From: Ulota crispa
Taxonomy: Eukaryota; Streptophyta; Bryopsida; Orthotrichales; Orthotrichaceae
Assembly (NCBI GenBank): GCA_963920765.1
Contig: OY987251.1
Span: 5,644,501-5,708,500, forward strand
Length of the DNA stretch: 64,000 nucleotides
Direction of reading: 5' to 3'
Shown piece after piece: positions 6,160-60,975 of this stretch. Made by a program: the position numbers and the translations under genes. The notes beneath the pieces are model-generated. The model ran no database searches, was not told the DNA's origin, and saw nothing but the letters and a program-made list of their open reading frames with translations. Numbering within the stretch: the stretch's first letter is position 1; every line of letters begins with the position of its first letter.

Positions 6160-6411
6160 TTAACCCCTGAGCGCCCAGCACAAGTTCACTCAAATCCAAA
6201 CCCTTTGAAAATCATTTCAATCAGACTATCATTTAAAAGAGATCCACAAAAATTGACCGTACAAATTGGTAATGAACATAAGCCCAGAGCTCCCAGGAAA
6301 AGGACATGTTCTTTCACCGTACCATAGAAAAGATTATAATGGTCAAACACAGAATTTTTTCAAAACCAAGAGGCCATATTTTGGCCCCTTGGGTGCTTAG
6401 TTAGGGGTTAA
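6160..6411. mobile_element. TTAA-flanked MITE (piggyBac-like family PB)
   Basis: Begins TTAACCCCTGAGCGCCCA and ends GTGCTTAGTTAGGGGTTAA, so the ends are inverted repeats and TTAA is present at both edges. TTAA duplication with CCC-type termini is the signature of piggyBac transposons. No coding capacity. Confidence 0.65.
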
Positions 6412-6512
6412 TCACACCAAAATATGCTTTTCAAGAGTAGTCCCCTCTTTTTGTACTAGTGGTAACAACACGTGGCACTACGTTATGTCTACCATTTCAC
6501 AAATTTTTGTAA

Positions 6513-6752
6513 TTAACCCTTAAACAACCAATTGACCATGGTACACAATGTGTACGTGCTGTATAATTGGCATTTGCTACCAAAAAAAAGTATACATTTG
6601 GGATCTTGACTAGCTCTCTAGAATTGCATTGATCTATTTTCTAACTTCTTTGCTGATCTCAAATGTAGTTAAGGTGTGGATGGGTTCCAAATACAAGAAA
6701 AACATATTGTATTATACTTTGTACTATGGTCGGTTGGTTATTTAAGGGTTAA
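6513..6752 (-). mobile_element. TTAA-flanked MITE (family PB, short subfamily)
   Basis: Begins TTAACCCTTAAACAACC and ends GGTTATTTAAGGGTTAA. The interior matches the reverse complement of 26362-26602, 31360-31602 and 44033-44222 (shared block GATCTCAAATGTA). No coding capacity. Confidence 0.7.
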
Positions 6753-8479
6753 ACTATTACTTGTGGGTTCAAGGCCATGATCTTCATAAAGCTTTATATA
6801 GGCATAAATATTGCTTGAAAAAAATCCTATGCATTTGTGGATGCTGTTATACCTACTGTTATACTTGCAAATGGTAATTGCAAAGTGATGTTATGTTGCG
6901 TAACCAACAAGATCATGTGACAATATTTTCTTCTAGCAATGTTTATGCAAGCAAAGGACCTCTTGCATGAGCATTCTCACACTTGTGCTATTGATTACTT
7001 GGGTTTTGCTCTAATTCTTAATGGCTTAACCCCTAAGTGCCCAAGCCATGTTCATCAAAATTAGGGTTTTAAGAGACCTACAACTTTGATGCATTGTATC
7101 TCAATCAATTTGATGATTCACAAAAAGTGACCATTGAAAATAGTGGAACACTTACTTAGAAAATTTCTTCCAAATTTTGGGAACAATTGGTTGTGGGAGA
7201 TGAGAAATTACAACAATTGATCAAACCTGTGATGACAAATTTTCATTTTTTGGCAGATAGTTGCTATTTAATGGTTTTTGCAAAATTCTATAAGCCACTA
7301 ATTCATCTCGAATATGGTGAATAGCAAAATTAGATGGGAATGAGCACACTTGCAAATTATTGAAGATGTTTCTTCTTTATGTTAATTTGTAGGGTTTCAA
7401 ATTGATATTGCATAGAAAACAATGATTGGCATAATTGGCAATGGTTGCCACAACAAGGGTCTAGAACATGCTTGAACCCTTGCCACCAAATTTCCAGCTA
7501 CCACAAAAGCACACGTAAGGAAGCTTGCAAGGGGTATTGACCAATTGTAACTCATAAAACATTACTTGCCACCTCACCATGTATGGTGTTCCATCCAACC
7601 AAAGCTCTTGAGACACTTGTATAACATTGGGCTTGCCTTGTCATTACTCTACTTGTATGGATCACATGAATGCCTTGATAATTGTGGTTTATAGCAAGGT
7701 CAAAAAATTAGATCCATGACCTCAAGAGGTTTGTGAAATCATGTGAGGACCATTTTGGTACTATGGGCCATTTAGAACCCCTGAAGGACCCTTGGGCTCT
7801 GGAGATACAATACCAAATATGATTGCAATCAATATTCAAAAGTTTAAATTAGTTGGATACTAAGTGTTACAATCATACATATTGAAGAGTTGTATGATGG
7901 TGGGTGCATAATTTTTTTGAAAAGTCCTTAGAGCAGCTCAAATATGTTTGTACACATGACTGTACATACGACCGCAAAGGGCTTTTGGGCCTTTTCAGGG
8001 CTAAGCGTGAGAATGCCCTTGTGTGAGGCCCTTCGCTTGCACTTTCGCTCAGGGTTTTGTAGGCGATTAGTGGAAATAGAACAGATGAGTACGTTTGTTT
8101 TCATGGTTTGTTTTGTGCTGATGGGTATTTGAGAAGCGTTTATTTTGTGGGTAAGCGGGAGTGAGAAGTGTGAGCACTAAGTTATACTTTTATTGTACGC
8201 TAGGTATCTTATTCTTGTAAGGAACTAGGGACTACTCCTGAAAAGGCAAAAAAAAAAAGAACAAAATAAGAAAAGAAAAGAAAAGAGGAAACTGGGGAGG
8301 TTCATGGGCAAAGTCTGGTTATGCGGACTTTGATGACGTCAAGAGTCAGTTGCGGTGGTTGTTTTGACCATTTCGTTTATGGACCAATGGATTGCCGAGG
8401 GGTATGGCTGTCCGGACGCTCTGCCACTTACTTTGACGTCAAAAAAAACAAAAAGTTTTTTCACAATTTTACATTGACT
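6753..8479. other. Repeat-derived spacer, no gene seen
   Basis: A lone TTAACCCCTAAGTGCCCA end occurs at 7027. The stretch 6961-7030 resembles 59690-59790 (blocks CTCACACTTG, ATTACTTGGG and AATGGCTTAA), so it is dispersed repeat. The frame at 8321-8659 is low in complexity and overlaps a CACTA miniature. I see no gene. Confidence 0.5.
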
Positions 8480-8617
8480 CACTACAAGTACAAGGGAAGG
8501 AATAGTGTCAATTTGATCATTTTTTTGGAGTCACTTTGGATTTTTTTTTTTTTTTTGTCAATTTGGACAAATTTAGTCAATTCAAACGTATCATTGTGGA
8601 TAGTTTTTCTTGTAGTG
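8480..8617 (-). mobile_element. CACTA (En/Spm-like) miniature element
   Basis: Starts CACTACAAG and ends CTTGTAGTG; the interior carries GTCAATTTG repeats related to 11227-11358 and 11433-11550. CACTACAAGAAA ends are typical of plant CACTA transposons. No coding capacity. Confidence 0.75.
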
Positions 8618-8659
8618 ACTATTGGGTCAAGATTCTTTAATTTGCAAATTTTTGTCTAA

Positions 8660-10013: not shown

Positions 10014-10079
10014 CTAAACATCCTTCCTCAAGTTTATGAATGGACATGTCAAAGATTGCCTGTTCAATTCATTTCCCAG

Positions 10080-15421: not shown

Positions 15422-15885
15422 AAAAACAAAAGAACACATTCCAAAACACCTATCTTTGCTGATATTGAAAATATTGCATGATATTGGTTGGGAAAGAACA
15501 AAAGAACACATTCCAAAACACCTAAGGTAGGAGCACCCATAACCGTGAGTTTAAGGGCTTTGAACATGATGAGTATTAGTAAATGTCTAGCAAATTATAG
15601 GATCCTATTAGCAACAAAAGAATAATGAGTTTGCACTTTCAAATTTATTATTTGAATATTGTGAGAATAAGTTGTGAATTTTTAAAGAGCAAACTGCCAT
15701 TGTACCCATAACCACTATTAAGATTTCATGTTCACACATTGTACATCTTTGTCATTACATCTATCTACTCCCACAAATTTTCCAAGATTTCAGAGGTCAC
15801 GCTTATGTAGACCCTCACGAGGATGGGTGCTCCTACCTTATCCTTACTGATATTGGAAATATCACATGATATTGGTTGTAAATGG
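15422..15885. repeat. 67-bp tandem duplication, second copy interrupted by a MITE
   Basis: The block AACACATTCCAAAACACCTA followed by TCTTTGCTGATATTG occurs intact at about 15422-15489. It occurs again split around the element 15523-15840. The intact copy acts as the empty site and shows that only TA was duplicated on insertion. Confidence 0.8.
15523..15840 (-). mobile_element. TA-flanked MITE (Tc1/mariner-like family TM, subfamily S3)
   Basis: Starts TA-AGGTAGGAGCACCCATA and ends GGGTGCTCCTACCT-TA. The interior matches 20266-20582, 23046-23350, 51939-52254 and 60274-60975, for instance GAACATGATGAG and GTGAGAATAAG. TA duplication is shown by the neighbouring empty site. No coding capacity. 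Confidence 0.85.
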
Positions 15886-16933: not shown

Positions 16934-17020
16934 GCATCAAAGTACAAATGAAAATGAGGATACAATATGGTGTATTTTAGACATGATCTGAACGTGCAAG
17001 AAGCTTGGATCAAGGTCTGG

Positions 17021-17232
17021 GAAGAACCTACTGCTAGTTCAGTGCTAGCCGATTGAAATGAGAAAAAACAATCTGCAATTTATAATCTTTGGCTAAAATC
17101 CGGACAAAAATCTTAAAAAAAATACTTATATTGTGAAATAAAGAAAATAACCGAAAGAGCTCCTTGATAAACCAGTACCATATAGGAATCGAAGGAAATC
17201 TACCGAAAAATCTCAAATATTTCCCGGACCCT
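17021..17232 (-). repeat. Dispersed repeat R1, copy 3
   Basis: The reverse complement aligns end to end with 405-620 and 4293-4516, from AGGGTCCGGG to GGTTCTTCCC. It therefore has the same two ends as the intron copy, which supports a discrete transposable unit. Confidence 0.8.
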
Positions 17233-17453
17233 GGCCTGGATAGCCTGCAATTTGCAGACCTATAGATGTATTGTGTACAACTGTACGTAAGTTACTTGCA
17301 GAGGTAAGTACTTGGGAGTTGGAAACTAAGTCACTGCAGGTTGGTCAGCTGCAGAGTTTCTCCTTGCAGCTTTTAGTCAGTTTTGAGTCTTTTGACTCAG
17401 CAGCCCAAAACACATGCATTTTTTTTGCCTTGCCATCGCTGTTTTTTGTATTA

Positions 17454-17760: not shown

Positions 17761-17788
17761 TTCATATTATCCCATTCAGAACTAAACT

Positions 17789-18118
17789 TAAGGTAGGAGG
17801 TTCATATTATGCTCAAGGTCAAAATTGGTCCACCTTCTCAAATGTATCTCACATGTATACGCTATTTTTCATAGGTTTCAAAAATGTACAAGCAATGTAC
17901 ATTTGAGAAGGTGAACCGTTATAAAGCCCTATGGCCTTTTCACTTCAAAATTTTATAACTAATTTCACAAAACTCCAAAAATATGAAACAACTTGGGGTT
18001 AGATGTCAAATTTTCTTGTCTTTCAAGGAAAATTTACTGAAAAATAGTTAAAGAAGTTTCACCTCCCCAAAATTCAGTTTTAGCCCTTAGATGGTTCATT
18101 CATGAGCCTCCTACCTTA
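17789..18118 (+). mobile_element. TA-flanked MITE (family TM, subfamily S1)
   Basis: Starts TA-AGGTAGGAGGTTCATA and ends ATGAGCCTCCTACCT-TA. An internal small hairpin pairs CACCTTCTCAAATGTA with TACATTTGAGAAGGTG. The family recurs at 27677-28007, 33866-34186 and twice in the 37396-38060 palindrome. Confidence 0.85.
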
Positions 18119-18348: not shown

Positions 18349-19187
18349 TAGTGGGTGTCAAACCTGGCATATTTGAAGGTTTCGGGATAACTCTGTACAG
18401 ATTTTTTTTGTAAAGTTACTGGGTGGTGGCTGAACCAAATTCTTCAAAGTTATCCCCCTTTCAAAGCTTCACAAATTATATGATAAAAATTTGAGTAAGT
18501 CTTCATAACTTATGTATGGGATAATGTCACAAAGATTGATGTGTGATATTAAAGAGGGAGGGTGTGATATTAAAAAGGGAGGGTGTGATATTAAAGAGGG
18601 AGGGTGTGATATTAAAAAGGGAGAGAGTGATATTAAAGAGGGAGATTGTGATATTAAAAAGGTTAGGGTGTGATATTACAAAGGTTATTTAGATTTTAGT
18701 AGTATGATTAGTAATAACACTAACATCTTTAATGTCATAGTTTCCCTCTTTAATATCACAATCTCCCTCGTTAATATCACTCTCTCCCTTTTTAATATCA
18801 CACCCTCCCTCTTTAATGTCACACCCTCCCTCTTTAATATCACAACCTCCCTCTTTAATGTCACACCCTCCCCCTTTAATATCACACCCTCCCCCTTTAA
18901 TATCACACCCTCCCCCTTTAATATCACACCCTCCTTTTTTAGTATCACACTCTCCCTATTTAGTATCACACTCTCCCTCTTTAGTATCACAGTCTCTCTC
19001 TAGAAGAGAGCTACAAGATCACTTGATAACTTTAAGAAAGAGAGGCCATAACTAGTTTAAGTTTTCAATCACCTCTAGAGATGGGTGATGAAGTTATCAT
19101 GCCTTATAACTTCAAAAATTGGTTGAGTTGTGGGGTGGACCCAACCAAACTTGTCGGGTGAGAAATAGCCAGGTTTGACACCCACTA
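18349..19187. mobile_element. Foldback element with arms made of 21-bp tandem arrays
   Basis: Outer ends TAGTGGGTGTCAAACCTGGC and GCCAGGTTTGACACCCACTA are exact inverse copies. Inside, about seven 21-bp units of the type GATATTAAAGAGGGAGGGTGT (18536-18680) face about twelve units in the opposite orientation (18735-18990). The organisation is like foldback elements described in animals and plants, whose arms are direct-repeat arrays in inverted orientation. The open frames seen here on both strands are by-products of a 21-bp period, which is seven codons. Confidence 0.8.
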
Positions 19188-19821: not shown

Positions 19822-20265
19822 GTGTTTTTATTTTCACCTACCAAACGCCACGTGCCCTCTTAGGAATGGAGAATTCTGAGAGGGAGAGAGGAGCATTGGT
19901 CCAATTTCTAACAAGGTGGCCTCATGAGACCCAAAAAAAATACCCAATTGGTATCAAAAGTGTTGGCTATATTCATATTATGACAAATGTCAAAATTCTC
20001 CAAAAATCCTACTTGACCGGTAGTATGTTTATGACTTAGCTTAAAATTTACAACTTCAATGGGAATCATAGTGCTACCCAAATACCCTATTCATATACAA
20101 TGCAAGAGAGCGTGTAAAATACAGAAACGTCCTTTATGGCATGGGTCGAAAGACCTTCAGTCAACACCAATTGATAGGGTTTTCCTAAAATTAATCATTT
20201 TCTCTTCAATTAGTTAAATATTTTTCACACTGAATGCATATTCCATACCTACGATTGAAATGGTA

Positions 20266-20582
20266 TAAGGTAGGAACACCCATAAGCGTTAGTGTCCCCG
20301 TAACTGTCACCTTTGAAATCTTAAAAAATCTCTAGAAGTGAATAGATGTAATGACAAGGATATACAACATGTGAACATGAATTCTTGAAAGTGGTTAGGA
20401 GTACAATGACAGTTTGCTCCTTAAAAATTCATAACTTATTCTCACAGTATCCAAATAATACATTCAAAAGTGCAAACTCTTTTTTTTTTGTTCCTAATAG
20501 GATCTTATAATTTGTTAGTTGTTTATTAATAGTCATCATGTTCAAAACCCTTAGTTTGACGTTTATGGGTGCTCCTACCTTA
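20266..20582 (+). mobile_element. TA-flanked MITE (family TM, subfamily S3)
   Basis: Starts TA-AGGTAGGAACACCCATAAG and ends TATGGGTGCTCCTACCT-TA. Aligns end to end with the reverse complement of 15523-15840 and with 51939-52254. Confidence 0.85.
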
Positions 20583-20632
20583 CTTGGAGAGTGTGTTCGT
20601 AACAGTCTCGATCTCGCCAACATACACAACAT

Positions 20633-26279: not shown

Positions 26280-27092
26280 TTAACCCCTGTGGTCTCTTGT
26301 GTTGTATATGGATAGGGTACTTGGATAATTTACCACATGAACCGCCTTGGAGTTGTAAATTTTAACCCCTAAAGGATAGGGTAGCCCTTTGCGACTAGTA
26401 CAATATGGAGTATTTTTCTTGTATTTGGAGTGCATCTAAACCTTTATTACATTTGAGATCAACAAAGAAGTTAGAATAGAGATCAATGTTGTTCTAGTCA
26501 GGTAGTCAAGATCCCAAATTTAAAAAAATATTGGTACCAAATGCCAATTATACAATAGCCTACATACTATGTATTATAGTAGCTCGGTTGTTTAAGGATT
26601 AATCCAAAGGATGTTGATGTATTGTGTATACTCTCCTTTGTTATATATGGATGGAGTATTTGGGTAGCACACAAATTCCATTGGAGCTGTAAATTTCTTA
26701 AGCCAAGTCATGAACATATTATCAGTCAACTAGGATTTTTTTGGGGAATTTTAGACATTTTTCATGAAGCCATTTCTTCAAATACTAAATGTTCCTTATA
26801 TGAATACAACCAACATTTTTGGTTGGCAACATCCTTTAGGGATTAATCCGCAAAGGATGTTGTTGTATTATTGTATATGCTCTCTTCTGTTGTATATAGA
26901 TGGGATACTTGGGTAACACATGAATCCCATTGGAGTTGTATATTTTAAGCCAAGTCACAAAACATACTACCTATCAACTAGGATTTTTTGGGAAATTTTT
27001 GACATTTGTCATAAAGCCATATTCAAAGTACTGAATGATCCTTGTATGAATACAACCAACATTTTTTGTAGGCAACATCCTTTAGGGGTTAA
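26280..27092. mobile_element. Chain of four TTAA-flanked MITEs sharing TTAA junctions
   Basis: Elements lie end to end with a TTAA at every junction: a truncated copy 26280-26365, a complete 26362-26602 (TTAACCCCTAAAGG at the left), then two related copies 26599-26846 and 26843-27092, each starting with TTAATCC, AAAGGATGTTG, and ending CAACATCCTTTAGGG(A/G)TTAA. The last two align with each other along their length. Sharing the TTAA fits repeated insertion at the element edge. Confidence 0.75.
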
Positions 27093-27221: not shown

Positions 27222-27625
27222 TTAACCCTTTAACAACTGTGGTCAATTCTAGAGGTGGGTAATCCTTTTTATGGCCATTTGGGGGAAATTTTAAAACTAT
27301 CGAATACAAATGTCTACCACAATTTGACCATAAGTATCTTGCAAGGTTTAGTGTTATGCATCATGAATTATGCTCACTCTTTAGTTGTTATGCCCATCTT
27401 TTTGGATTCATTGGTGTATTTTCAGTTGGTACTCTTTTAGTTTTTTCAACCCTTTGGCCACATGCCACCTTAGATTGGCTTGGTTATTGTCCTAAACTCT
27501 TCACTTTCCAATTCCCCAGACACGTTCCCTTTGGCTAATCACCAGATTCATTGCCATTCTCTTCCTACATAGGGAAAAGGGGCTAGATTGACCATAGAGT
27601 GGTTGACCGGTCATTAATGGGTTAA
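27222..27625. mobile_element. TTAA-flanked MITE (family PB)
   Basis: Left TTAACCCTTTAACAACTGTGG and right GACCGGTCATTAATGGGTTAA have similar inverted ends with TTAA at both edges. The interior is not shared with the other copies. Confidence 0.55.
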
Positions 27626-27676
27626 TGGGAGAGGAGACGTGAGTTCCCCTACGACCTAGCTATTTCTTGAATTACA

Positions 27677-28007
27677 TAAGGTAGAAGGCTCATAAACCAT
27701 CCATGCTCTAAAACCGCCCACCCTCTGAAATGTATCCTTTTTGTACATGATGTTTTTCATAGGCTTCCAAAATGTAGAAATAGTGTACATTTGAAGAGGT
27801 GGGCGGTTTTAGAGCCCTATGCCATTTCAGCTTCAAAATTTCATAACTAATTCTATAGAGCTCCACAAAATGCAAAGCAACTTGAATTAGATGCCAATTC
27901 TTCTTGTCTTCCAAGAAAAATTTACTAACAAATATCTCAAGAAGTTACACCTCCCCCAAAATTCAATTTCAGCCTTTACATGGTCGGTTTATGAGCCTCC
28001 TACCTTA
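27677..28007 (+). mobile_element. TA-flanked MITE (family TM, subfamily S1)
   Basis: Starts TA-AGGTAGAAGGCTCATAAACC and ends GGTTTATGAGCCTCCTACCT-TA. Aligns with 17789-18118. Confidence 0.85.
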
Positions 28008-28067
28008 TCATCAAAATTCACAGACAAGCTTCCTTAGACCTCACCAAGTAAAATCACTTCATCAGCA

Positions 28068-28469
28068 TAAGGTAGGAGGCTCATATTGTGTGCGGTCATT
28101 TTGAACCGCCCATGTAGACTCCATCAAAATGAAAATGAGGTGGTTCTAAAATCATCCACTTACAATCATTGAATACATGGATGAAAAGTTGTAAGAGCCA
28201 ATCATCCTCCTTAATTCCCCAAATCTCTTCACAACTTGCAAGTGAATGGTTTTTGAAAGGTTTAGGTTCATAAATAGAGACCTATGACACATGCCTTTTA
28301 AAAATTCATAAGTAACTCAAAAATACTTCAAAAAATATGAAACGACTTGTGTTACATTCAGCATCTCTTTCTCTTTGTTTGAAAAATGATCTAAAAATCC
28401 TCCCCTCCACGGAAGACCCTGAAAAAGGGGATAAGCCCTTAGATGGTCGGTTTACGGCCCTCCTACCTT
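28068..28469 (+). mobile_element. TA-flanked MITE (family TM, subfamily S2)
   Basis: Starts TA-AGGTAGGAGGCTCATA and ends GGCCCTCCTACCT-TA. The interior matches 49634-50050 and the reverse complement of 16520-16933. Confidence 0.85.
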
Positions 28470-28859
28470 AATGCAGAGAGCTCCTCTCAATGCCAGAAGG
28501 GTGTGCCGTTTTGCATTGAAAATGTCGCCAGACAGCGTCATATGGGAGGGGGCATTTTAGTGGTGGCTTGATTGAGATGATTTGAATGCAAGCGGGTACT
28601 GGACAACCAGGGTGATCTCGACGTTGAGTCCATGATTGGAGGGTGGTGTGAATTGAGAAACCGACCTCTAACGTGCTCTCTTTTGTAGTCATAGAGTAGT
28701 AGTAGTATATTAAACACTGACATGGAGGGGGGACGAATATACCTGCCAAAGGTGGAATTGCCAATTATGAAAATTGCATGTGGATTAAGATTGACAGTAA
28801 CCGGACCTTGAACAATCGACTAATTCAACTTTGAGGGCAACAAGGAGCGTGGTGTGATG
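28470..28859. other. Spacer with overlapping open frames
   Basis: The minus strand is open over 98 codons (28764-28468) and 61 codons (28723-28538) in two frames. Neither shows a recognisable motif or splice borders. I leave it unassigned. Confidence 0.35.
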
Positions 28860-30370: not shown

Positions 30371-31295
30371 TTAACCCCTAAAGGACCAGACCCCTTTTTT
30401 TTAAGAAACATAGCGATTTTGGGCAAGTACCTGTGATTGGAATTTTTCATATTTTAGGTTGAAATTTTAATAGATTGTGGGGACAAGATTTATCTTTCAT
30501 AGGCACTAAATTTCATGACATTTGGAATTATGAGTAAAAAGTTATGGCCTAATATGTTGTTTTTTATGTTTGGCGGGTAGCTTGGGCAGATTTTTAAAAA
30601 TCACTTTTTTCAAAAAACAAAAATTTCAAATTGGTTTAGGAGATTTATGTGAATGTAGGAAGCTTTGAATCATTCTATTTGGATCAAAGTTATGAAAGTT
30701 ATGAGGATTTTTTGTTTGCAAGTAGTTATGGATTCTCTACTCCAAAATAAACTTTGAAGTCCTTTATTTTACTCAATTTTCAACATTTTGGAAAAAAAAC
30801 AAAACCAAAGGATTAATATTGTTTATGACAACATTATGACCATTGGGATTGGCATTTTTCATTTCCATAATAAAATTCTTAACAATTTAGTGTTTTGAAT
30901 CATTCTCTACTTCTTTTTATTTACCAATTTTTTTCCATATGTTATACAACTCCAAATGATTTGAAACTTTTTTGACATGTACTTTACTTAGGCGGAATAA
31001 GGAGTTTAGAGAAGCACCACCCACATGGCCTTTTTTCCTTAGGAATTTCACCTTCTGAAGGGTAGCTGCCCGGTTTTTCACAAGACATTTTTGAATATTC
31101 AAACCCTTCTAACTTCCAGTCCACGTGGTGGAAAACTCTAAATTTTTGTCCACATCTTCCAAAACCATTCTTTTACAAGATCCTATGGTTACATATGCAT
31201 AAAAATGTTTTAATTTTCAAATTTGGTTGATGCTCTAAAAATGGCAGTTTTGAAGAGTTTTTGGTGAAAACTTTGCTTGGTCCTTTAGGGGTTAA
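30371..31295 (+). mobile_element. Long TTAA-flanked element (family PB, long subfamily)
   Basis: Begins TTAACCCCTAAAGGACC and ends GGTCCTTTAGGGGTTAA, a 17-bp perfect inverted end with TTAA on both sides. At 925 bp it is the longest member. Its left subterminal part (GATTTTGGGCAAGTACCTG) matches the reverse complement of the right end of 48549-49308. No transposase frame is present. Confidence 0.8.
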
Positions 31296-31359: not shown

Positions 31360-31602
31360 TTAATCCCTAAAGGACTGAGGCAGCCCTTTGTGGCCAATAC
31401 AATACGGGGCATTTTTCTAGTATTTGGAGTGCATTCACACCTTTATTACATTTGAGATCAACAAAGAATTTAGAATGTAGATCAATGTTGTTCTAGTGAG
31501 GTAGTCAAGATCCCAAATTCAAACTTTTTGTTAGTAGCAAATGTTAGTTATATAACTGCATACATAGTACGTATTATAGTAGCTCAGTCTTTTAAGGTTT
31601 AA
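31360..31602 (+). mobile_element. TTAA-flanked MITE (family PB, short subfamily)
   Basis: Begins TTAATCCCTAAAGGACTG and ends CAGTCTTTTAAGGTTTAA. Aligns with 26362-26602 along its length, including CTTTATTACATTTGAGATC. Confidence 0.75.
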
Positions 31603-33575: not shown

Positions 33576-35999
33576 TTAAGGCATGTAGTACCTGTTGCCA
33601 CACAGGCATCGCCAAACCTCCGGGTAATACTCTGTCTCGGAAATGACGCCATGGGGGCTGCCGATGGCAACGTGCACTGGCATGCAAGGTTGGCAGGAGC
33701 CACACTTGTATTTGCAAGTGGGTGGAGAAGACCCTACCAAGCCTCTTCTGTTGTTGTTATTGTGTTCCTTGCTGTGAAAATGGAAAATTGAATCGGTTTC
33801 CGGAGGTGCAATTCTCACATAATCCATTTCCTGTGAAACACAGAAAAAAGGTCAGCAATATAAAGTACGGTAGTGTGCTCATATCTAAGGGCTGAAACTG
33901 AATTTTGGGGAGGTGAAACTTCTTGAACTATTTTTCAGTAAATTTTTCTTGAAAGACCAGAAGAATTGACATCTAACCCAAGTTATTTCATAAGTTTTGG
34001 AGCTTTGAGGAATTAGGTATGAAATTTTGAAGTGGAAAGGTCATAGGTCTCTAGAACCGTCCACCTCCTCAAATGTACACTGCTTGTACATTTTGAAAAT
34101 TTATGGAAAAAAGCATGTACAACAAGGGGACATTTCAGAAGGTGGGCAATTTTAATGCGTGGATGGTTTATGAGCAGACTACCTTAGTATGCTCTTAACC
34201 CCTCATTTCTAGCGGTTCTCAAATAAGATGAAAATTGGGGACAAAAACGTTTGCTAAGGCAACAAGGGAAACCTTCACTTTAAGGGTTGGTTTGTAGGCC
34301 TTTCCAAGGCTGGAAATTTTTTGTGTTGTCTAATTTTCAAACAAAAAGAAATGGATGCCAAATGTAACACAATTTTTTTCATGTTTTTTCTGAAGCATAA
34401 TTGAATAGTTGATGAATTTTTCAAATTTGCATCTATTTTTGACTTGTAGATAAGTCTCCCAAAATCCGTCCCCTTGAAACTTGTGAAAAGATGAGAAGAA
34501 ATTGAGGAGTATGATTGGTTCTTCTATCCACTCCAAGGCTAAAGAGGATCCATTGAATTTTGAGGGCCACTTCATATCCATTCTTGAGCTAATTAGTTAT
34601 AAGGACGCTTTAAGTAAGAGGGGGTCGCAATTTGAGTACACTACCTTAAACAAAATGTATACTAACCCTTCCAGTTTGCTCCCACTGTAGACGTCTTAGC
34701 ATTTACTATATAGAAGCTAAGAATGTACACTTCATAATTTGGGTTAAATTCCATGTGACCTGGTGTTTTTAAAACTTGACCCTACCCTCTCAGGCTCTCA
34801 CCAGGGTGTCTACAATCAGTGTGGAAATGAAGCCACGGTGTAAAGAGAGGAGACAAGCTGTTCATGAGGCGGCTATCAGAGTAGTTACTCGGCCAACATG
34901 AGATTAAATTCAAGTACAATTATTCCAGTCCTGTATGTCTGCTACCTTGATGTAGTATATTTTCAGAAAAATACTACTATTCTACAGACTTAATCAATCA
35001 ATTGTAGCAGCCAGCCTTTACATAAATTCCGGCGTCACTCTGACAATCCTCCAATCTAGCAGGCTTTTGGACACTACTGCTCTTTTCAGGGGAAGTTGAA
35101 TATCTTGCTCATGCTTATAATCAATGGCTAACCACAATACTGTAGCTGCAATTGATGTGGTTTTGAAAAAATTACCTTGATGTTGTGTATTTTCAGTTCT
35201 GCCACTTCAAGCTTGGCATGAATCGGTGTTGGCTCCAGATACGAGATCATTTCCTTGGCAAGGCTGCTGCCTGTATACAAAAAAGAATGTCAAAAGTGAG
35301 TTTCGGTTTATTCAATTAAACTCAGTTTATGAATCGCTAACTCAATTCACTAACATCACTGACTTGCCGAATCCACTACTGTAGTAGCCATATGCACGAA
35401 AATAGCTACTTTTTCCATTCGAATTTATGCTCAATAGTCACACTGCCAACTGGTACAAAACAGGTGATCAACTCCCTACAGCCCATCCACAAGATCTTTT
35501 TTCACAAATATAATACTAATAGATGTTAAGAAAGAGGCACAATACTTCGACTAGAATCCAAGCGAAATTCTTATATAATCTTTACAATCTAGAATCTATT
35601 GAAAGGCAAAATTTATACCCAAAGAACAGGAAAAAACAAAACAACCCTTCCTTTAGTAGCGTATAGATTTAGCCCAAGGAAAAGCCAGCAAAAAAGGCTG
35701 TCAAGGCTGCTGTGATATGTACATACACATCTGACAGGCAGAGGATCGCTGATCGGTGACTCTTAAAAAACTTGTGTAAACTTAACACCTGTACAGGATA
35801 ACCGACAGGATGGGAGGAGATGCAAACTAACTCACAGCTGGTATTATTATTATTATGTGGGGAAACCGAGTGTTGAAAAAACTAAAGTTGGAAGGAATTA
35901 ATTACCAGCTGCTGGGCCAGTGCGAGCATTCACTGAAGCAAAAAAGCAGCAAACCACAAGCAAAAAGGTGCAGCTGATCAAGCAAGCGGCTGTCGACAT
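33576..35999 (-). CDS. EPFL-family secreted cysteine-rich peptide (EPFL4/5/6-like), three exons
   Basis: Exons 35999-35906, 35270-35176 and 33830-33576 join in phase (intron phases 1 and 0) through GT-AG sites: CTG|GTAATT to gtatacag|GCAGC, and CAAG|GTAATT to tttcacag|GAAATG. The product is 147 residues. Residues 1-25 form a signal peptide (LLVVCCFFASVNA). After a variable propeptide with HNNNNRR near 86-92, the mature domain begins about GSSPPTC at 96 and runs to the C-terminus. It has six cysteines at about 102, 106, 109, 112, 138 and 140, with CGSCQPC, EYYPEVWRC and CGNRYYMP at the very end. This pattern matches the EPIDERMAL PATTERNING FACTOR-LIKE family, closest to the EPFL4/5/6 group. 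Family members are apoplastic ligands of ERECTA-family receptor kinases and, with TOO MANY MOUTHS, control stomatal spacing or growth. Subtilase cleavage before the mature part is likely (inference). The second intron (33831-35175) holds two MITEs. Confidence 0.92.
33866..34186 (-). mobile_element. TA-family MITE (S1) in EPFL intron 2
   Basis: Ends ATGAGCAGACTACCT-TA at the right; the left end is degenerate (ACGGTAGTGTGCTCATA). The interior matches the reverse complement of 17789-18118 and 27677-28007. Confidence 0.75.
34255..34648 (-). mobile_element. TA-family MITE (S2) in EPFL intron 2, degenerate left end
   Basis: The right end is GAGTACACTACCT-TA. The interior matches the reverse complement of 28068-28469 (AACACAATTTTTTTCATG, TTGAAACTTGTGAAAAGATG). 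With its neighbour it makes up about half of the intron. Confidence 0.65.
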
Positions 36000-37395: not shown

Positions 37396-38060
37396 TAAGG
37401 TAGTAGGCTCATGAATGGAGCATCCAAGGGCTGAAACTGAATTTTAGGGAGCTGAAACTTATTAAAATGTTTTCAGTAAATTTGCCTTCAAAGACAAGAG
37501 GAATTGACATCTAACTCAAGTTGTTTCATATTTTTTGGAGTTTTGTGGAATTATTTATGAAATTTGGATGTTGAAATGGCATAGGGCTCTAAAATGGTAC
37601 ACCTCCTCAAAATGAACATTGCATGTACATTGTTGAAGTGCTATGAAAAAAAAACATGTCCAAATAGAGCACATTTGAAGAGGTGCACCGTTTTAGAGCA
37701 TGCACGGTTTCAGATCCTCCTAGCTTCTCTAATTTGGCTTAGACTCTAAAATGGATCACCTCCTCAAATGTACTATTTTGTACATGTTGTTTTTCACGGG
37801 CTTTAACAATGTACACATAATATACATTTGAGGAGGTGCACCATTTTAGAGCCCTATGCCATTTCAACATCCAAATTTCATAACTTATTCCAGAAAGCTC
37901 CAAAAAATATGAAACAACTTGGGGTAGATATCAATTCCTCTTATCTTTGAAGGAAAATTTACTGAAAAATATTTCAAGAAGTTCCACCTCCATCAAAATT
38001 CAGTTTCAGGCTTTCAGCCCTTAGATCAGTTAGATGCTCCATTCATGAGCCTCCTACCCG
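37396..38060. mobile_element. Head-to-head pair of S1 MITEs forming a ~660-bp palindrome
   Basis: 37396-37730 (minus orientation) and 37735-38060 (plus orientation) are two S1 copies lying back to back. Each has its own inner hairpin (CACCTCCTCAAATGTA-type arms). The outer ends are TA-AGGTAGTAGGCTCATGAATG and CATTCATGAGCCTCCTACC. Transcripts crossing it would fold into a long hairpin. Confidence 0.8.
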
Positions 38061-44032: not shown

Positions 44033-44222
44033 TTAACCCTTAAACATCTAAAGGCACCTTTGCTGTTAGTACAATATAAGGTATTTCTCTTATATTTGGA
44101 ATGGATTCACACCTTTATTACATTTGAGATCAACAAAGAAGTTGGAGAATAGATTAAAGCTGTTCTAGTGAGCTACTTGAGATCCCAAGTTAAAACTTCT
44201 TATTGGTAGCAAATGCCACAAC
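44033..44222 (+). mobile_element. Truncated TTAA-family MITE
   Basis: Begins TTAACCCTTAAACATCTAAAG and aligns with 26362-26602 and 31360-31602 until about GGTAGCAAATGCC, where the right end is lost. Confidence 0.65.
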
Positions 44223-47138: not shown

Positions 47139-47985
47139 TGGGGAAATTACAAATGGGAATTGATATGTATACCACACTTTTTCAATTACTATACCACATT
47201 TTGGGAAAATTTTAGATTTCTACCATCAAAAAGATGAATTTGAGAATTTTGAATTCAAATTTGGACTTAGAGACCATGATTTAGTCTAGGGCCATTTAAA
47301 AAGTTGCAATTCAACAACACCCAATGAAAAAGTTTAGCTAGGGAGAAAAGTATTACTTTTACTTTTGTTTGTAAAAAAAAATAAACATTTTCATTGGGTG
47401 TTCTTAATTGCAACTTTTTTATGGCTCTATACTAAATCATGGTATGTAAGTCCAAATTTGAATTCCAAATTCTCAAATTCAGCTTTTTGATGGTAGAAAT
47501 CTAAAATTTTCCCCAAGGGTGTGGTACAATAATTGAAAGGGCGTAGTACACATATCAATTCCCATTACAAATAGGGGCATGAAAACGTAAAACATTACAG
47601 ATAGGAGCATGAAATCAAAAAATATTATAGATAGGAGCACGATTTCAAAACATTTGTAATTTTTTGTGATTTTTTTTGGTTTGGACATTGGTTGATTCAG
47701 ACACATCACATTAAATGTTAGTTGATTTCCACAAAATATATATGCCTCTCCAAATCAAGCCTAAATAAAGAAATTTTAGTTAAGGGAATGACAAATTTTT
47801 GAAAACTTTTAAATTTTTTTGGAAGTTATCTAACATTTAATGTGATGTATCTAAATCAACCAATGATGTCCAAACCAAAAAAATTACAATTTTAAAAAAA
47901 AAGTGCCCTATTTGTAATTATTTTGAAAATTACGCCCCTATCTGTAACATTTTACGTTTTTATGCTCCTATTTATAATTTCTCCT
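47139..47985. mobile_element. Foldback element interrupted by a younger MITE
   Basis: Left arm GGGGAAATTACAAAT, continuing after the insertion as AGGGGCATGAAAACGTAAAAC, pairs with the right arm GTTTTTATGCTCCTATTTATA ending AATTTCTCCT. Inner blocks ACATCACATTAAATGTTAG and CTAACATTTAATGTGATGT also pair. The left arm is interrupted at 47155 by the hairpin 47155-47563. Confidence 0.8.
47155..47563 (+). mobile_element. Mutator-like foldback MITE (family MH), copy B, nested
   Basis: GGGAATTGATATGTATACC at the left and ACATATCAATTCCC at the right. Perfect 9-bp duplication attacaaat at 47146-47154 and 47564-47572. Removing the element and one duplication restores the left arm of the host foldback. 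Confidence 0.9.
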
Positions 47986-48548: not shown

Positions 48549-49308
48549 TTAACCCCTACAGCCTTGGGGCCTTTAATTATTTTGTCAAATGACACTCAAA
48601 TGCCATTTCTATTGCAAAGAGTAAAAATGTTTGAAATTTTTTAACTTAAACCTTTTGCACCACAAAGTTTTGAGGTTTACTTTCTTATGGTGGGAAATTG
48701 AGTTGAGAATCTTTGGAAAAAAATCAAAACAAAAAATACTTAATTTTCATTTTTTTTTAAAACATTAGATGGAAGAAGGTATGAGATTGAACAAAAACTT
48801 AAATTGTTAATAACCTTGCAATGGAAATGAAATGCAATAATCCCAATGTTGAGATTGTTCTAGAAAGCAAACTTCACCCTTCTAATAATATTTTTTGAAA
48901 AAATGTTAAACTTGCATTAAAAAATGAGGTTTATAAGTTATTTTTTCAAGAAGATGTCTGAAGTGCCCAAAAAACAAGATTGTCCATAACTTTCTCATAA
49001 CTATCCAAATGGAATGAATCAAAGCTTTAGTAGAAAAAACAATATTAACCTATGAGAAGAAAAAATGAAAAGAAAATCCAAGTTTTTGTAAAAATAATGT
49101 GCTGCCCAATCTCCATAAATATTTGCTTATCTAGGTATAACTTTTGCTTTTGGGCATAGATTGGAATAAAAAGTAGATTCCCCAAAAGCTTATGTGTTTT
49201 CCTATTTTCAAAAAAAGTTTCAAAAAATCATGGCAAAAATTGAGGCCATAGGTACCTGCCCAAAATCACATTTGTCCCCCAAGGAGACAACATGGCTTTA
49301 GGGGTTAA
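48549..49308 (-). mobile_element. Long TTAA-flanked element (family PB, long subfamily)
   Basis: Begins TTAACCCCTACAGCC and ends GGCTTTAGGGGTTAA. The right subterminal part, read in reverse, matches the left part of 30371-31295 (GGTACCTGCCCAAAATC). No transposase frame. Confidence 0.75.
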
Positions 49309-49405: not shown

Positions 49406-50423
49406 TAAGGTATTAGGCTCTAGAAACGTTTGGTGATTTTGAACCGTCCAAGTAGGGGTCACTAAAATGGTGCACCAAGTCTCCTAAACGGATGACACTT
49501 TCTTTATTTAGAAATTGTACTTGTGCATGCCCGGTTTTAGAACCTCAAGAGAATGACATGAGCTACCATTAAGTGAGCTTATTGGCCATTATTGTGTTGA
49601 GTTTTTTTTTTCAACAAAATATAAATATATGTCATAAGGTAGTCGGCTCTAAAAGCATTGGTCATTTTGAACTATCCATATAGACAATAGAGAAATGGAC
49701 ATGAAGTGGTTCTTAAATTGTCCTCTTACAGTCATTGAATACATGAAAGAAAAGTTGTTTTTAATTGCAAGAGCCAATCATTCTCCTCGCTTTCCCATAT
49801 CTCTTCACAACATACAAGTGAACGGTTCTTGGAAGGTTTAGGGTCATAAATAGGGACTTGTGGTACATAAACTTTGAAAATTCATAAGTAATTCAAAAAT
49901 GCTTCAAAAAATATGAAACAACTTGTGTTACAATATTCCGCATCTATTTCTCTTTGTCTGAAAAATGAACTAAAAGTCCTCCCATCCATGGAAACCCATG
50001 AAAAAGGGGAATGATCCCTTAGATGGTTGGTTTTTGAGCCGACTACCTTATTAAAATAAACAAAAATGTGTTCTCAATCATAATTTGAATATTAGAATAT
50101 GAAATGCGTGCTTGCACACTTTAAGAGCCTTATTGGAGCATTCTTGGTTTTGTAGTGGTTACTTTTAGGACTCATGAGCTTCATTTACAAACTACCTTTA
50201 CATCATAAATACAACCACCTATGATTAAGAATAGATAAATATGCACCTTTTGCTTTGATAAATTATACTTAGTTTGTACCAAATCAAAAAAATTCAATCT
50301 AAATGGCCATAAAATTGTTCCTTCTATGACTTTCTACCAAAAATATTTCTAGGTTGCTAATTTGACTTTATTGTAGTACAGACGTCATCCTTTAGATGGT
50401 CGGTTTACGAGCCGACTACCTTA
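49406..50423 (+). mobile_element. TA-family MITE (S2-like) with another S2 copy nested inside
   Basis: Outer ends TA-AGGTATTAGGCTCTAGAAAC and GGTTTACGAGCCGACTACCT-TA. Inside, 49634-50050 is a complete S2 copy (TA-AGGTAGTCGGCTCTAAAAG to GAGCCGACTACCT-TA) that aligns with 28068-28469. Confidence 0.7.
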
Positions 50424-51938: not shown

Positions 51939-52254
51939 TAAGGTAGGAACACCCATAAGCGTTAGCGTCCATAATTGTCACTTCTAAAATCTTGGAAAAT
52001 CTGTAGAAGTAAATAGATGTAATTATAAGGATGTACAACATGTGAACATGAAATCTCAATGTTGGTTATGGATACAATGGCAATTTGCTCTTTAAAAATT
52101 TGCAACTTATTCTCACAATATCCAGATAATATATTTGAAAGTGAAAACTCATTATTATTTTTGCTGCTAACAAGATCCTATAATTTGCTAGATGTTATTA
52201 ATAATCATCATGTTCAAAACCCTTAAACTAATTCTTATGAGTGTTCCTACCTTA
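51939..52254 (+). mobile_element. TA-flanked MITE (family TM, subfamily S3)
   Basis: Starts TA-AGGTAGGAACACCCATAAGC and ends TATGAGTGTTCCTACCT-TA. Aligns with 20266-20582. Confidence 0.85.
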
Positions 52255-53801
52255 CTCTCAACACACTTGTGCAACATAATCCAAGAGTCACTAGGTACAA
52301 GAGCACAAGATTTGGAGCTGCAAATTCTTGAAATCAAAATTTATCCAATTTGCAATGGCTGAAAACTAAAAAAAATCATCTTCAAATGGTATGATTTTGT
52401 CAATTGTAAAGAATTAGGGCCTAAAAAGAATTATCTAGTTACAAAACCAAATTAGCTTTGAAATCATACAGTCAGTCTAATGAACAGATATCACAAAATA
52501 ATTACAAGGTGGTTTTCTAAAAGGTTACAACTTTTGGTAACGTTGGTCTCAAAACTACCACTTGCTTGAGGGATTAGCTATTCCATTTAGTATTGAGTAC
52601 TCTAGATTTTCAAAATTGTGAAAAAGTAGTGTAAACTAGACCCTATATGTTTAATTAATTCTAGACTACAAAGACAAATTCAAACAATAACTTTACCTAT
52701 ACCCAAGTGGTCTCCAAAGGTGACCCCTACTCTTGAGGTGTTCATCATTCATTGTGAACCCAAAGTGGAGCAATGAGTGTCACTTGTTCAAGCAAATTTT
52801 GCCACATGTCAATTTAGTAACTAGTTTGAGAGAGTTGAAATTGGGACCATCAAGTACAAGTATAGGAACACATCCAAGCATTTTCAAGGGGAGTTTAGAG
52901 TTGCTTTTAGGGACCCTATGAGCTATAACCTTTCCCTTTAATATAAAATATTCTACAATATTTTTTCCATAAAAATTACATTCCATGGTAGTTTGTACCT
53001 ACATATTTTTTTCTTGAATTTTTCAAGACCTTGAAGTACTCTAAACCCTTAAACGCTCAGGTATGGGTAAGGTTACTTTACAATCTTGTGGAGACTAGAA
53101 GAGATTTTGACATCAAGCATGTACTTCATGAGTGCAATGCATTAGAAGCAAATAGAAACTGTGTTTTTTAACATTAGGAAAAATTTGAGCCCTTTAGAAG
53201 GCACCTAACTTGACATGAGAGATGTGCATATAGAGAAAAAAGTTGCCATTTATGACAATCAAAAATGGCAAATTCTGACATCTGCAAGCAGTTAGATCAT
53301 GTGCCATTGCGGTTTTATTATCATTATTTTATTTATTTATTTATTATACTATATTTCTTACTTCTGTAATGTACAGTGTTGCCACTTTTGAGGGGCCTTC
53401 TAGAGGGCTCAGAATTTTGCTAATGCAAATGCAAGGCATGCCTTCATCTTTCTTGAGTGATTTCTTTTCCTTCAAGTAGAACTTGGGGTGAAAATTTTTG
53501 AAAATTTTGATTTGATAAAACTCTAAAATTTGAGAATTTACCACATTAAGTTCAATTTGGAATTTTGAATTCTTGCTTGGATTCAAAAGTCCTCAGTTAG
53601 TGTACCATGATTATATTGGATAACAATAAACAACTATAAAATAGAGGCATATATCTATTGTTTTTCTTTGTTAGTGAAAAAACAGGACTTTCCAACCCTA
53701 AAGTTTGCCTATAAGAAAAGAGAGAATTTGAGGAAAGATTGAGGATGTCCTTTTCTTTTAATAAAAACCCCACCTCTTGATTTCTTTTAGGATGCAGCTT
53801 T
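52255..53801. other. AT-rich spacer, nothing identified
   Basis: A lone AACCCTTAAACGCTCAGG at 53045 resembles a PB end. No gene. Confidence 0.4.
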
Positions 53802-53878
53802 TTAACCCTTTAACAACAAGGTTGCCAAACCTAATCAGCAATTGACCGCTTTGTGACCTCCTTGTTCCTAAGGGTTAA
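53802..53878. mobile_element. Very short TTAA-flanked element
   Basis: Only 77 bp: TTAACCCTTTAACAACAAGG at the left, CCTTGTTCCTAAGGGTTAA at the right. It consists of little more than the two inverted ends with TTAA at both edges. Confidence 0.7.
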
Positions 53879-57243: not shown

Positions 57244-57654
57244 GGGAATTGATAAGTGCACACCATGGGTTTATATTAGCACACCCGCTTGGGAGGTAAA
57301 TTGTAGATTTCTACCATCAAAAATCTGAATTTGAGAATTTTGAATTCAGATTTGGACTTAGAGATCATGGTTTACTCTAGAACCATAGAAAAGTTTGCAA
57401 TTGAACAACACCCAATGAAAAGCTTATTTTTTTTTACAAACAAAAGTAAAAGTAACACTTTTTCCCCTAGCTAAGCTTTTCACTGAGTGTTGTTTAATTG
57501 CAACCTTTTTTTATGGTTCTAGAGTAAACCATGGTCTCTAACTCCAAATCTGAATTCAAAATTCTCAAATTCAACTTTTCAATGGTAGAAATCTACAATT
57601 CATGTCCCAAGGGATGTGCAAAGATCAACCCCCGATGTGCACATATCAATTCTT
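57244..57654 (-). mobile_element. Mutator-like foldback MITE (family MH), copy C
   Basis: GGGAATTGATAAGTGC at the left and CACATATCAATTCTT at the right. The arms align with copies A and B, and the asymmetric loop (AAACAAAAGTAAAAGTAACAC) is inverted relative to them. Flanks are A-rich (attaaaaaa / ttaaaaaaa), compatible with a 9-bp duplication but not decisive. Confidence 0.75.
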
Positions 57655-58738: not shown

Positions 58739-59056
58739 GGAAAATTTTCATGGATACCCCCGAAGTTTGCAATATTTGCATATATAATTTCTTTTTCAGA
58801 AAATTACACAAGTACTTTTGGGTCAAAAATCTCAAGCGTTTTTTTATTGTGCACGCCACTTCTCTTCTTCATTTGTGTGTATATTGTTTCTTTTTTGTTT
58901 CATTACATTCCCTTCCTCAACATTGGTCATGAAGTAAGTGAGAGTAAAACAAATAAATGCTTAAAATTATGATTCAAGGGCATTTGTGCAATTTCTGAAA
59001 AACTAGGGGTATCTATGTAAATATTGCAAACTTTAGGGATATCCATGAAATTTCCC
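58739..59056. mobile_element. Foldback MITE (family MG) with perfect 9-bp duplication
   Basis: Arms GGAAAATTTTCATGGATACC and ATCCATGAAATTTCCC. The flanks aaaatagaa (58730-58738) and aaaatagaa (59057-59065) are identical, which marks a Mutator-like insertion. Confidence 0.85.
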
Positions 59057-59185
59057 AAAATAGAATAACAGGAGCCCTTTGAAAAGTAATATTTGCTTAT
59101 TTGAAGGCTCTTCATGGAGGATTTATTGAGACAATTCAAGTAATTTGGTATAGTGAACAAAATTAACTATGTGCCATTATTTTTA

Positions 59186-59496
59186 AGGAAATTTTTATGG
59201 AAACCCCTGAAGTTTGCAATGTTTTTGTAGATACCTTTGCTTTTTTCACAAATATAGCTAACACTCTTAGATCAAAAATTTAGGTGTTTGTTTTGTTATG
59301 CATGTCACTTCCTTCTCCTTCTCTGGGCACACTACTTCTTTCTTGTTGTGCGTGCGTACAAAGGAAGAAGGGAAGTGGCATGCACAACAAAACAAGCGCC
59401 TAATTTTTTGGACCAAGGGTATTTGTGATATTTCTGAAAATGCAAGGGCACCTATGAAAATATTGTAAACTTTAGGGATCTCCATGAAATTTTCCC
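59186..59496. mobile_element. Foldback MITE (family MG) with perfect 9-bp duplication
   Basis: Arms AGGAAATTTTTATGGAAACC and ATCTCCATGAAATTTTCCC. The flanks ttattttta (59177-59185) and ttattttta (59497-59505) are identical. It lies only 130 bp from the previous copy. Confidence 0.85.
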
Positions 59497-60273
59497 TTAT
59501 TTTTATGCTTGAAGACTCACTTGGTAATAACATACAAATTTAGACCAAAAATCAAAAGGACTAATACAAAACTAGTAATAAATTCTTACTACTCCTCATT
59601 TAGTTGATAAAGTAAATGAATTGAAAATCTTTTATTTGAAACTAGTATAGGCACTTGTCGGTTTGACAAGATGTGAAATTGTTTAAGGCCCAATTATGCA
59701 AAACATCTCTTACACATGAGCAATCTCACGTTGATGCACCACTTATTACTTGGGCTTGACCTTTGTTCCCAATGGCTTAAACATGAGAATATCCTTGTGT
59801 GAGTCCCTTAGAGCATCTCTTGCCACCAGCTTTGCCATGCCTTGTCAAATCAGTTTCTAAGGCGTGAACTTGCATGAGGTGATGAGGCGTGGCTTGAAAC
59901 TCTCCTATAGCCTGGAAGGTTTAGGCCTGCACTTGCATTAAATTGTACCGCAAAGGTACACTTGGCTAGGGAGTGACGCTGTGACAATTTACAACTTCCA
60001 TGTGTGTGAACAGTGTGTGCGAGGGGCCGTGAAAGGGGCTGTAGAAGGCTAGAATTTGATAAGGTTAGGACAGATTTTGGAGGCTGCATAGATACATTGT
60101 CTTTGGAGACTCAAATTTGCTAGTTGTTACAAGTTGGCAACAAATTTGTTTCCAAGACTCATTTCAATGGTGGCAAACCCTTACGCCTTTGATACCCTCA
60201 TTCCTTTGATACAATTATGCCTTTGATAGGCCCAAGGACGTGACCCCTCTAGCCCCCTCCTAGGACAATCACA
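59497..60273. other. Spacer with a dispersed repeat
   Basis: 59690-59790 resembles 6961-7030 (blocks GAGCAATCTCAC, TTATTACTTGGG, CAATGGCTTAA). No gene. Confidence 0.45.
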
Positions 60274-60975
60274 TAAGGTAGTAACACCCATAAGCGTTAG
60301 TGTTCCCATAACAATTACCTTTGAAATCTTGGAAAATATGTGGAAATGAGTAGATGTAATTACAAGGATGTACAACTGTGAACACATAACCTTAGTGTTG
60401 GCTATGGGTGCAATGGTAGTTTGTTCTTTAGAAATTCACAGCTTATTCTCACAATATCCAAACAATACATTCAAAAGTGCAAACTTATTTTTTTTGTTCC
60501 TAATAGGATCCTATAATTTGCTAGCTGTTTATCAATGCTCATCATGTTTAAAACTCTTAACCCCTAAACGCCCATGAGGACGATTATTGTCCTTTGGCCC
60601 TAAAAAAAAGTTCTGTACACCAAAAAAATGTCATTTTTCATCTGTTTTTTTTTCCAAAGTGACCGTAAACATATGATCCATCATAGAAGGCAAAAAATCA
60701 TCTTATCAAATATGCTCATATTTTTAAGTAACCCAAATTGTGAGAAAATTCAAAATCATGGGGTTAGGTCTCAAGTTGCCCTTATTGCAATTTTCATGAG
60801 GTCGGCAGGTACTATTGACTTTTGAAACTTTTAAAAGCAATACTATTGGTGCCCATTAGCCAAAACACTATTGAAACTACTGTAAAAATTCTATTAAACC
60901 TACAATTAGGGCAAGCCACGGCTACCCAGCGGTCCTTTAAGGGTTAAAGTGACGCTTATGGGTGCTCTTACCTTA
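60274..60975 (+). mobile_element. TA-flanked MITE (S3) interrupted by a TTAA element
   Basis: Starts TA-AGGTAGTAACACCCATAAGC and ends TATGGGTGCTCTTACCT-TA, aligned with 20266-20582 and 51939-52254 except for the insertion 60557-60947. Confidence 0.9.
60557..60947 (+). mobile_element. TTAA-flanked MITE (family PB) nested in an S3 MITE
   Basis: Left TTAACCCCTAAACGCCC and right GGTCCTTTAAGGGTTAA. Removing it with one TTAA restores the S3 sequence with the same length as uninterrupted copies, so TTAA was duplicated on insertion. Confidence 0.88.

Follow-up and report, generated by a model that had tools for sequence, protein, structure and literature searches.

TTAA-flanked, CCC-ended miniature elements with piggyBac-type transposase genes elsewhere in the genome of Ulota crispa

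A stretch of 64,000 nucleotides from the genome of Ulota crispa (contig OY987251.1, positions 5,644,501 to 5,708,500; C10:5644501-5708500 in the host assembly of 274.8 Mb and 157 contigs), referred to below as the window, contains 11 paired elements bounded by TTAA and 3 single ends. The listed window ends have in common a terminal consensus of about CCC(C/T)TAAA(G/C)(G/A)(A/C)C. A preliminary description of the window had listed at least twelve elements beginning with TTAACCC(C/T) and ending with GGGTTAA, and had assigned them to the piggyBac superfamily of DNA transposons, a group known chiefly from animals. On the evidence below, the elements are almost certainly nonautonomous miniature inverted-repeat transposable elements (MITEs) of this superfamily, residing in a plant genome.

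Seven of the paired elements have the exact ends TTAACCC...GGGTTAA. These are a 252-bp element at 6160-6411 (plus strand; left end CCCCTGAGCGCCCAG, right end CCCCTAACTAAGCACCC), a 240-bp element at 6513-6752 (minus strand; 33-base inverted repeats, 88% complementary), a 404-bp element at 27222-27625 (plus strand), a 925-bp element at 30371-31295 (plus strand), a 760-bp element at 48549-49308 (minus strand; ends CCCCTACAGCC and CCCCTAAAGCC), a 77-bp element at 53802-53878 (plus strand), for which the ends CCCTTTAACAACAAGG and CCCTTAGGAACAAGG are the sole support, and a 391-bp element at 60557-60947 (plus strand), which is inserted in another repeat, a TA-flanked one of family F5 (60274-60975, plus strand). 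A close family consisting of 30371-31295 and 48549-49308 was considered and dropped, as their full-length identity is 53% (P = 0.466); the support for a relation between them is a 265-base stretch of 48549-49308 that is 68% like part of 30371-31295.

The remaining elements fall mostly into two families, which were delimited by self-comparison of the window. Family F1 comprises the 240-bp element, a 241-bp element at 26362-26602 (plus strand; TTAA at both ends, 83% identity to 31360-31602), a 243-bp element at 31360-31602 (plus strand), and a copy at 44033-44218 (plus strand) that is truncated on its right side, with pairwise Kimura two-parameter distances of 0.20 to 0.35. Family F2 comprises a truncated element at 26280-26361, a 248-bp element at 26599-26846, and a 250-bp element at 26843-27092 (all on the plus strand), as well as a relative at 19978-20135 that has CCAT in front of its end. 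The 248-bp and 250-bp copies are arranged head to tail and have one TTAA in common. Homology of the truncated copy to 26878-26949 stops at about the TTAA, where an internal TTAA is broken by the F1 element at 26362; this nested insertion has half the expected support, because no remnant of the target was found on its right side. Apart from the 19978-20135 relative and the truncated copies, the family boundaries defined by homology coincide with TTAA. A single left end, TTAACCCCTAAGTGCCCAAG, lies at 7026-7045 (plus strand), and its right end was not found.

The preliminary list thus holds for the seven elements with exact ends and requires correction elsewhere. What it called a chain at 26280 consists of four elements, the first of them truncated, and some of the inner ends read TTAATCC; 31360 is indeed an element but starts with TTAATCCC and stops with GGTTTAA; at 44033 a left end is present, but only that; and the single end at 7026 had been omitted.

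TTAACCC occurs 24 times on the two strands of the window, compared with 10.8 +/- 2.8 expected from 100 dinucleotide shuffles, none of which reached 24. Nine pairs of this motif face each other at a distance of up to 1 kb, compared with 3.4 on average after permutation of the orientations (nine was reached in 2 of 20,000 permutations), and the miniature elements of the preliminary description are thus real. Seven of the nine pairs are elements, one (26362/27092) covers three adjoining elements, and one (34195/34747) was discarded. With up to one mismatch, the inner end pattern alone is directly preceded by TTAA at 14 of 17 window sites, TTAA starting at 0.7% of positions; there is some circularity in this count, the pattern having been derived from TTAA ends, and the tests that follow are free of it. 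Examples of end-like sites without TTAA are 7774 (AGAA), 50935 (TCAA), 53042 (TAAA), and 20144 (CCAT). One could suppose that all of this reflects chance, or telomere-like motifs lying beside the TTAA that is frequent in AT-rich DNA. CCCTAAA is the plant telomere unit and is found inside many of the ends, and five of the 24 TTAACCC motifs (at 21853, 34195, 34747, 37307, and 48107) were judged from their inner sequence to be chance occurrences and left out of the element list. The enrichment, the facing pairs, and the existence of genomic copies with the same boundaries nevertheless refute chance as an explanation of the whole, and its probability is close to nil.

Terminal inverted repeats were scored over 40 inner bases per end and compared with 500 shuffles. 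They are strong (score reached by 0 or 1 shuffle) in seven elements, those starting at 6513, 26599, 26843, 27222, 30371, 31360, and 48549, with the best local match in 26843 and 27222 out of register with the tips, and moderate in the element at 53802 (28/500). The piggyBac superfamily is described as having terminal inverted repeats of 12 to 19 bp with a CC[C/T]T terminal motif (PMC2872659). Such repeats and motifs are found here, the element at 30371-31295 having 18-base perfect inverted repeats that include the TTAA. Most tips are CCCTT or CCCCT, and that at 27625 is CCCAT; deviant tips are TCC at 26599, 26602, 26843, 26846, and 31360 and ACC at 31602. Taken strictly, the fourth base of CCCCT does not fit CC[C/T]T, which is also true of two coral ends in PMC2872659. 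With sizes of 77 to 925 bp, no coding capacity, many copies, and defined ends, the elements have the properties of MITEs. No transposase family was identified in 17 stop-free stretches of at least 45 amino acids from 10 of the 11 paired elements (the 77-bp one was omitted), all matches being below the cutoff.

The target site can be read directly in one case. When the flanks of 60557-60947 are joined via a single TTAA, the resulting sequence aligns, junction included, with four further copies of the surrounding repeat, at 86.3, 84.8, 80.6, and 80.2%, and represents an empty site with TTAA as the target. Two further spanning matches of joined flanks turned out to be artifacts of the head-to-tail F2 copies.

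Genome-wide searches extend this observation (in each copy search 40 places were scored, larger counts are first-look candidates, and window copies are included). The exact 14-base end CCCCTAAAGGACCA is present 8,876 times in the genome, 7,555 times (85%) directly behind TTAA, and a backwards control pattern gave 0 occurrences. For the 925-bp element, 36 of the 41 listed matches cover positions 1-925 exactly (4,903 first-look candidates), and 39 other complete or near-complete copies are 90 to 92% identical to the window copy. Positions 1-404 of the 404-bp element are covered exactly by 27 of 40 scored copies (673 candidates), positions 1-391 of the 391-bp element by 34 of 40 (2,624 candidates), and positions 1-240 of the 240-bp element are covered by 30 of 40 (3,556 first-look candidates). 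In the 12 best-scoring 925-bp copies that were fetched, the window's own included, TTAA stands at 23 of 24 ends and the sequence outside is unrelated (26 to 28% identity). Compiling the four flanking bases, which the preliminary description had proposed as a check, therefore returned TTAA for the great majority, and together with the empty site these flanks reveal the TTAA target duplication of the piggyBac superfamily. The 40 best copies of the window families diverge by 8 to 16% from the window copies, a divergence that points to earlier bursts of these families.

Formally, a TTAA empty site may also be read as TA plus one base on each side, as if Tc1/mariner-type elements, which duplicate TA, had landed in TTAA by chance. 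A group of TA-flanked repeats in the window served as a control: its outer bases are A 9 times, T 8 times, G 5 times, and C 4 times (26 ends). Because they vary freely, fixed TTAA flanks are no general property of window repeats. In contrast, the outer T and A are retained in 85% of the 8,876 ends and TTAA at nearly all ends of the fetched 925-bp copies, and the transposase found (see below) belongs to PF13843. The TA duplication with free outer bases that membership in Tc1/mariner implies is not seen in these elements, and an origin of this kind is extremely unlikely.

A search of the host genome with PF13843 (DDE_Tnp_1_7), the piggyBac transposase family, gave 120 matches, all above the cutoff (best E value, 1.3e-73); 116 of 528 candidates were scored, and the matches include genes matched in two pieces. 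There were 0 matches in 14 control genomes. An uninterrupted frame of 472 amino acids on contig C8 matches the transposase structures of bat piggyBat (PDB 9c0f; E value, 3.6e-18) and Trichoplusia ni piggyBac (PDB 6x67; 6.6e-16), with D268, D346, and D447 aligned to D. A frame on C4 matches 6x67 at 4e-20 and has D at the positions of D268 and D346, its aligned stretch stopping before D447. We take these three residues to be the catalytic aspartates of piggyBac transposase.

The host also has 6 SAM_LFY matches (best E value, 1.2e-27, on C4), and the LFY family is plant specific. In the window, an F-box match (28.2 bits; cutoff, 20.5) precedes a KIB1-4 propeller match that falls slightly below its cutoff (27.0; cutoff, 27.4) and a Kelch match slightly above its own; the F-box and KIB1-4 matches, in neighboring frames at 3213-5442, are probably one gene with an intron. 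Because of the LFY family and these window matches, the host is taken to be a plant, as the preliminary description had held, and probably a land plant. The large contigs with the LFY or F-box matches also hold elements and transposases. Within 3213-5442, the sequence at 4294-4514 recurs at 407-627 and 17011-17234.

Possible partner elements were sought at 23 transposase loci. Of these, 15 spanned 5.5 to 6 kb and 8 spanned 4.1 kb, which is less than elements of 5 to 8 kb need; five were extended. TTAA ends were paired by script, and pairs were assigned at 6 of the 23 loci (C2 twice, C3, C5, C6, and C7). The pairing scores are 17 for the 5,230-bp pair on C2 and the 8,033-bp pair on C7, 16 for the 5,027-bp pair on C3, 15 for the 5,216-bp pair on C2, 13 for the 7,089-bp pair on C5, and 11 for the 6,836-bp pair on C6. 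The highest score in 300 draws of a control with the right ends reversed was 13, but the reversal removed the CC start and so favors our interpretation; in a stricter control with unmodified draws from the window, 16 or more was never reached in 300 draws and 15 was reached in 24. Scores alone thus carry the 5,230-bp element on C2, the element on C7, and, with an ambiguity described below, that on C3. Two window ends recur at these loci: the left 19 bases of the element at 6160 are identical to the left TTAA end beside the transposase match on C6, and the first 23 bases at 7026 have 91% identity to the end of the 5,216-bp transposase-bearing element on C2.

Independent of the scores, six blocks of likeness (64 to 76%) run from end to end of the transposase elements on C5 and C8. 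Their likeness begins exactly at a TTAA (position 652 of the C5 sequence, 3695 of the C8 sequence) and ends at C5 7735 and C8 9345, five bases before the right-hand tips. The 404-bp window element resembles both ends of these elements. Its bases 209-404 match the C8 element at 74.5% (E value, 1e-32) and its bases 214-404 match the C5 element at 69.6% (5e-19), this side measuring 191 to 196 bp. The opposite end of both elements is matched at 70% by bases 1-77 (2e-4); some 131 bases between the matched ends are assigned to neither. The element at 27222-27625, with its likeness to C5 and C8 on both sides, is therefore a shortened derivative, a transposase element that lacks its middle.

The preliminary description had expected an autonomous partner elsewhere in the genome, or its loss, and had named longer copies encoding a PF13843 transposase as the test of piggyBac identity. 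Both expectations are answered by the PF13843 genes, which lie inside longer elements with TTAA and CCC-type ends, two of which share both ends with 27222-27625. For the 27222 family, the link to a PF13843 transposase between like ends is firm. On C8 (locus L011, 5347-5350), two elements abut at a decayed TTAA (TCAA/TTGA), one a transposase-bearing element with a 27222-type end and the other a copy with a CCCCTAAAGGACCA end.

Several observations weigh against the assignment to piggyBac or against particular partners. The two ends of an element are not alike above chance in 6160 (score reached by 238 of 500 shuffles), 26362 (64/500), and 60557 (113/500). Of 12 joined-flank tests, only that of 60557 gave an independent empty site, and 1,321 of the 8,876 exact CCCCTAAAGGACCA ends have no exact TTAA before them. 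Internal stop codons interrupt 110 of the 120 PF13843 matches, leaving 10 that are stop free. The pairing on C6 (score, 11) and, by score alone, that on C5 (13) are within the control ranges, and C3 has a second pairing, of 9,125 bp, with an equal score; the pairs at the C6, C5, and C3 loci may therefore combine ends of separate MITEs. On its right, the C8 element is flanked by TTGA, and no partner with an exact CCCCTAAAGGACCA end on both sides was found among the transposase loci read.

TTAA alone does not suffice to tell superfamilies apart, as the target of Kolobok is TTAA too (PMC6004289), and MITEs of Kolobok, or of another TTAA-targeting superfamily such as Sola3, moved by an unrelated transposase would resemble the window elements in this respect. 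The T2-MITEs of Xenopus, which belong to Kolobok, are like the window elements in target and in being MITEs but differ in their AGGRR ends and in their transposase (PMC6004289). Kolobok ends are given as RR or AGGRR in that source, whereas the window ends are CCC, which excludes them from Kolobok membership. A profile of 12 Kolobok ends found 0 TTAA-preceded sites among its best 100 window sites, though no more than 0.70 was expected by chance. Furthermore, piggyBac transposase genes are located between matching ends, and for the 27222 family, with the ends that it shares with PF13843 elements, a Kolobok-type origin is contradicted. We consider this alternative very unlikely.

A profile of 19 published coral piggyBac ends behaves differently: 9 of its best 50 window sites are preceded by TTAA, with 0.35 expected. 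When columns 5-13 of the profile were permuted, the mean was 0.21 and the maximum 4 in 300 trials. TTAA is also the commonest 4-mer before its best 100 sites (12, compared with 0.70 expected). The window elements resemble the coral MITE named CMITE and its partners AmiPB1 to AmiPB6 (PMC2872659) in their TTAA flanks, CCC[C/T]T ends, lack of coding capacity, tandem copies, and like-ended partners; tandem arrays have been described for CMITEs in the same source. In contrast to CMITE, which is about 100 bp long (PMC2872659), they measure 77 to 925 bp and reside in a plant. The ends of the 391-bp element at 60557-60947 agree in 11 of 13 bases each with the left and right ends of AmiPB2, a likeness that no TTAA-preceded site showed in 60 Markov sequences; 2 and 4 window sites lacking TTAA match those ends equally well.

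Our interpretation as piggyBac MITEs would work as follows. Each element is a DNA segment between CCC(C/T)-type ends, and these ends would be recognized by a DDD transposase of piggyBac type that longer elements in other parts of the genome produce. This enzyme would excise the segment and insert it at TTAA, leaving TTAA on both flanks, and the 27222-27625 family, at least, originated from a transposase-bearing element by loss of the middle. The TTAA target and boundaries, the high copy number, the transposase in like-ended elements, and the ends shared by 27222-27625 are direct observations. From these we infer that such transposases may have moved the window copies by cut-and-paste with precise excision. 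The other window families would have partners of their own or common ones, and the binding and excision steps, like any present activity, are likewise predicted from sequence comparison.

Near 36.76 and 36.78 Mb on C2, a 5.2-kb transposase-bearing element is present twice (L014 and L015), about 10 kb apart and in opposite orientations. The copies are 99.3% identical over 5,233 bases and unrelated outside on both sides (24 to 25% identity); on one side the likeness stops at TTAA, and on the other L014 lacks about 17 of the last bases of the element. This arrangement points to recent movement and to damage at the end of one copy; as a single genome was compared, an unusual duplication is an alternative. 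A broader hypothesis holds that the plant lineage harbors a large, diverse, and recently mobile piggyBac radiation, in which several lineages of transposase-bearing elements, distinguished by their end types, gave rise to miniature families, some of which reached thousands of copies. The unrelated flanks of the C2 pair raise the standing of this hypothesis, to which we give an even chance. Transposase matches with equal or near-equal scores form two further pairs in opposite orientations, on C7 (near 18.20 and 18.22 Mb) and C10 (near 0.68 and 0.79 Mb); they may be recent copies, duplications, or assembly repeats.

Other repeats share the window with the piggyBac-like elements. The TA-flanked group, mostly of 300 to 420 bp with ends starting AGGTAG, is represented at 15523-15841, 17786-18118, 20265-20584, 27674-28008, 28066-28470, 33883-34186, 37396-38058, 49633-50050, 51939-52256, and 60274-60975; by their target these are Tc1/mariner-like MITEs, with an end sequence that we did not recognize. 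A foldback repeat of about 400 bp, some 80 to 83% self-complementary over its length, occurs in three copies (1658-2074, 47152-47566, and 57246-57652), with the end GGGAATTGATATGT in two and GGGAATTGATAAGT in one. Region 18541-19001 forms a large hairpin-like structure, one arm of which is built from tandem copies of the 21-base unit TTAAAGAGGGAGGGTGTGATA and the other from the complement of that unit. Searches of the window gave 0 Rfam matches and 0 tRNAs by ARAGORN.

The host transposases are related to those of T. ni piggyBac and bat piggyBat (PDB 6x67 and 9c0f), with aligned aspartates, but are far diverged from them in sequence, and the elements are 5 to 8 kb long, compared with 2.4 kb in the insect (PMC2874221). 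Among land plants, the fern Ceratopteris offers a likeness in repeats labeled piggyBac (1,230 pieces, 122,417 bases; PMC6890710), in a table row only; the passage gives no ends, target, or transposase. The literature on piggyBac in plants conflicts: the superfamily is assigned to "animals only or other organisms" in PMC4093653 and listed among plant superfamilies in PMC10794571, and relatives are said to occur in plants in PMC2874221 and PMC10813416. Searches of the open-licence PMC literature listed no paper that, by its title or the opening of its abstract, deals with piggyBac MITEs in a plant, and the excerpts of the Niphotrichum and Coffea papers hold nothing on the question of piggyBac in plants. 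The statement of the preliminary description that the superfamily is rarely reported in land plants is thus neither proved nor disproved.

The elements belong, on our interpretation, to a known superfamily in a host group where its presence is disputed. One plant genome combines piggyBac transposases and miniature derivatives, at high copy number, and annotation that assumes plants to be without piggyBac would miss or misname such elements. The insect piggyBac system has already been applied to footprint-free excision in rice (PMC10905368), and native plant piggyBac transposases and ends would provide a comparison for it. If the hypothesis of a radiation is true, piggyBac would be a major DNA transposon group in at least one branch of the green plants, as a heritage of an early ancestor or through horizontal transfer.

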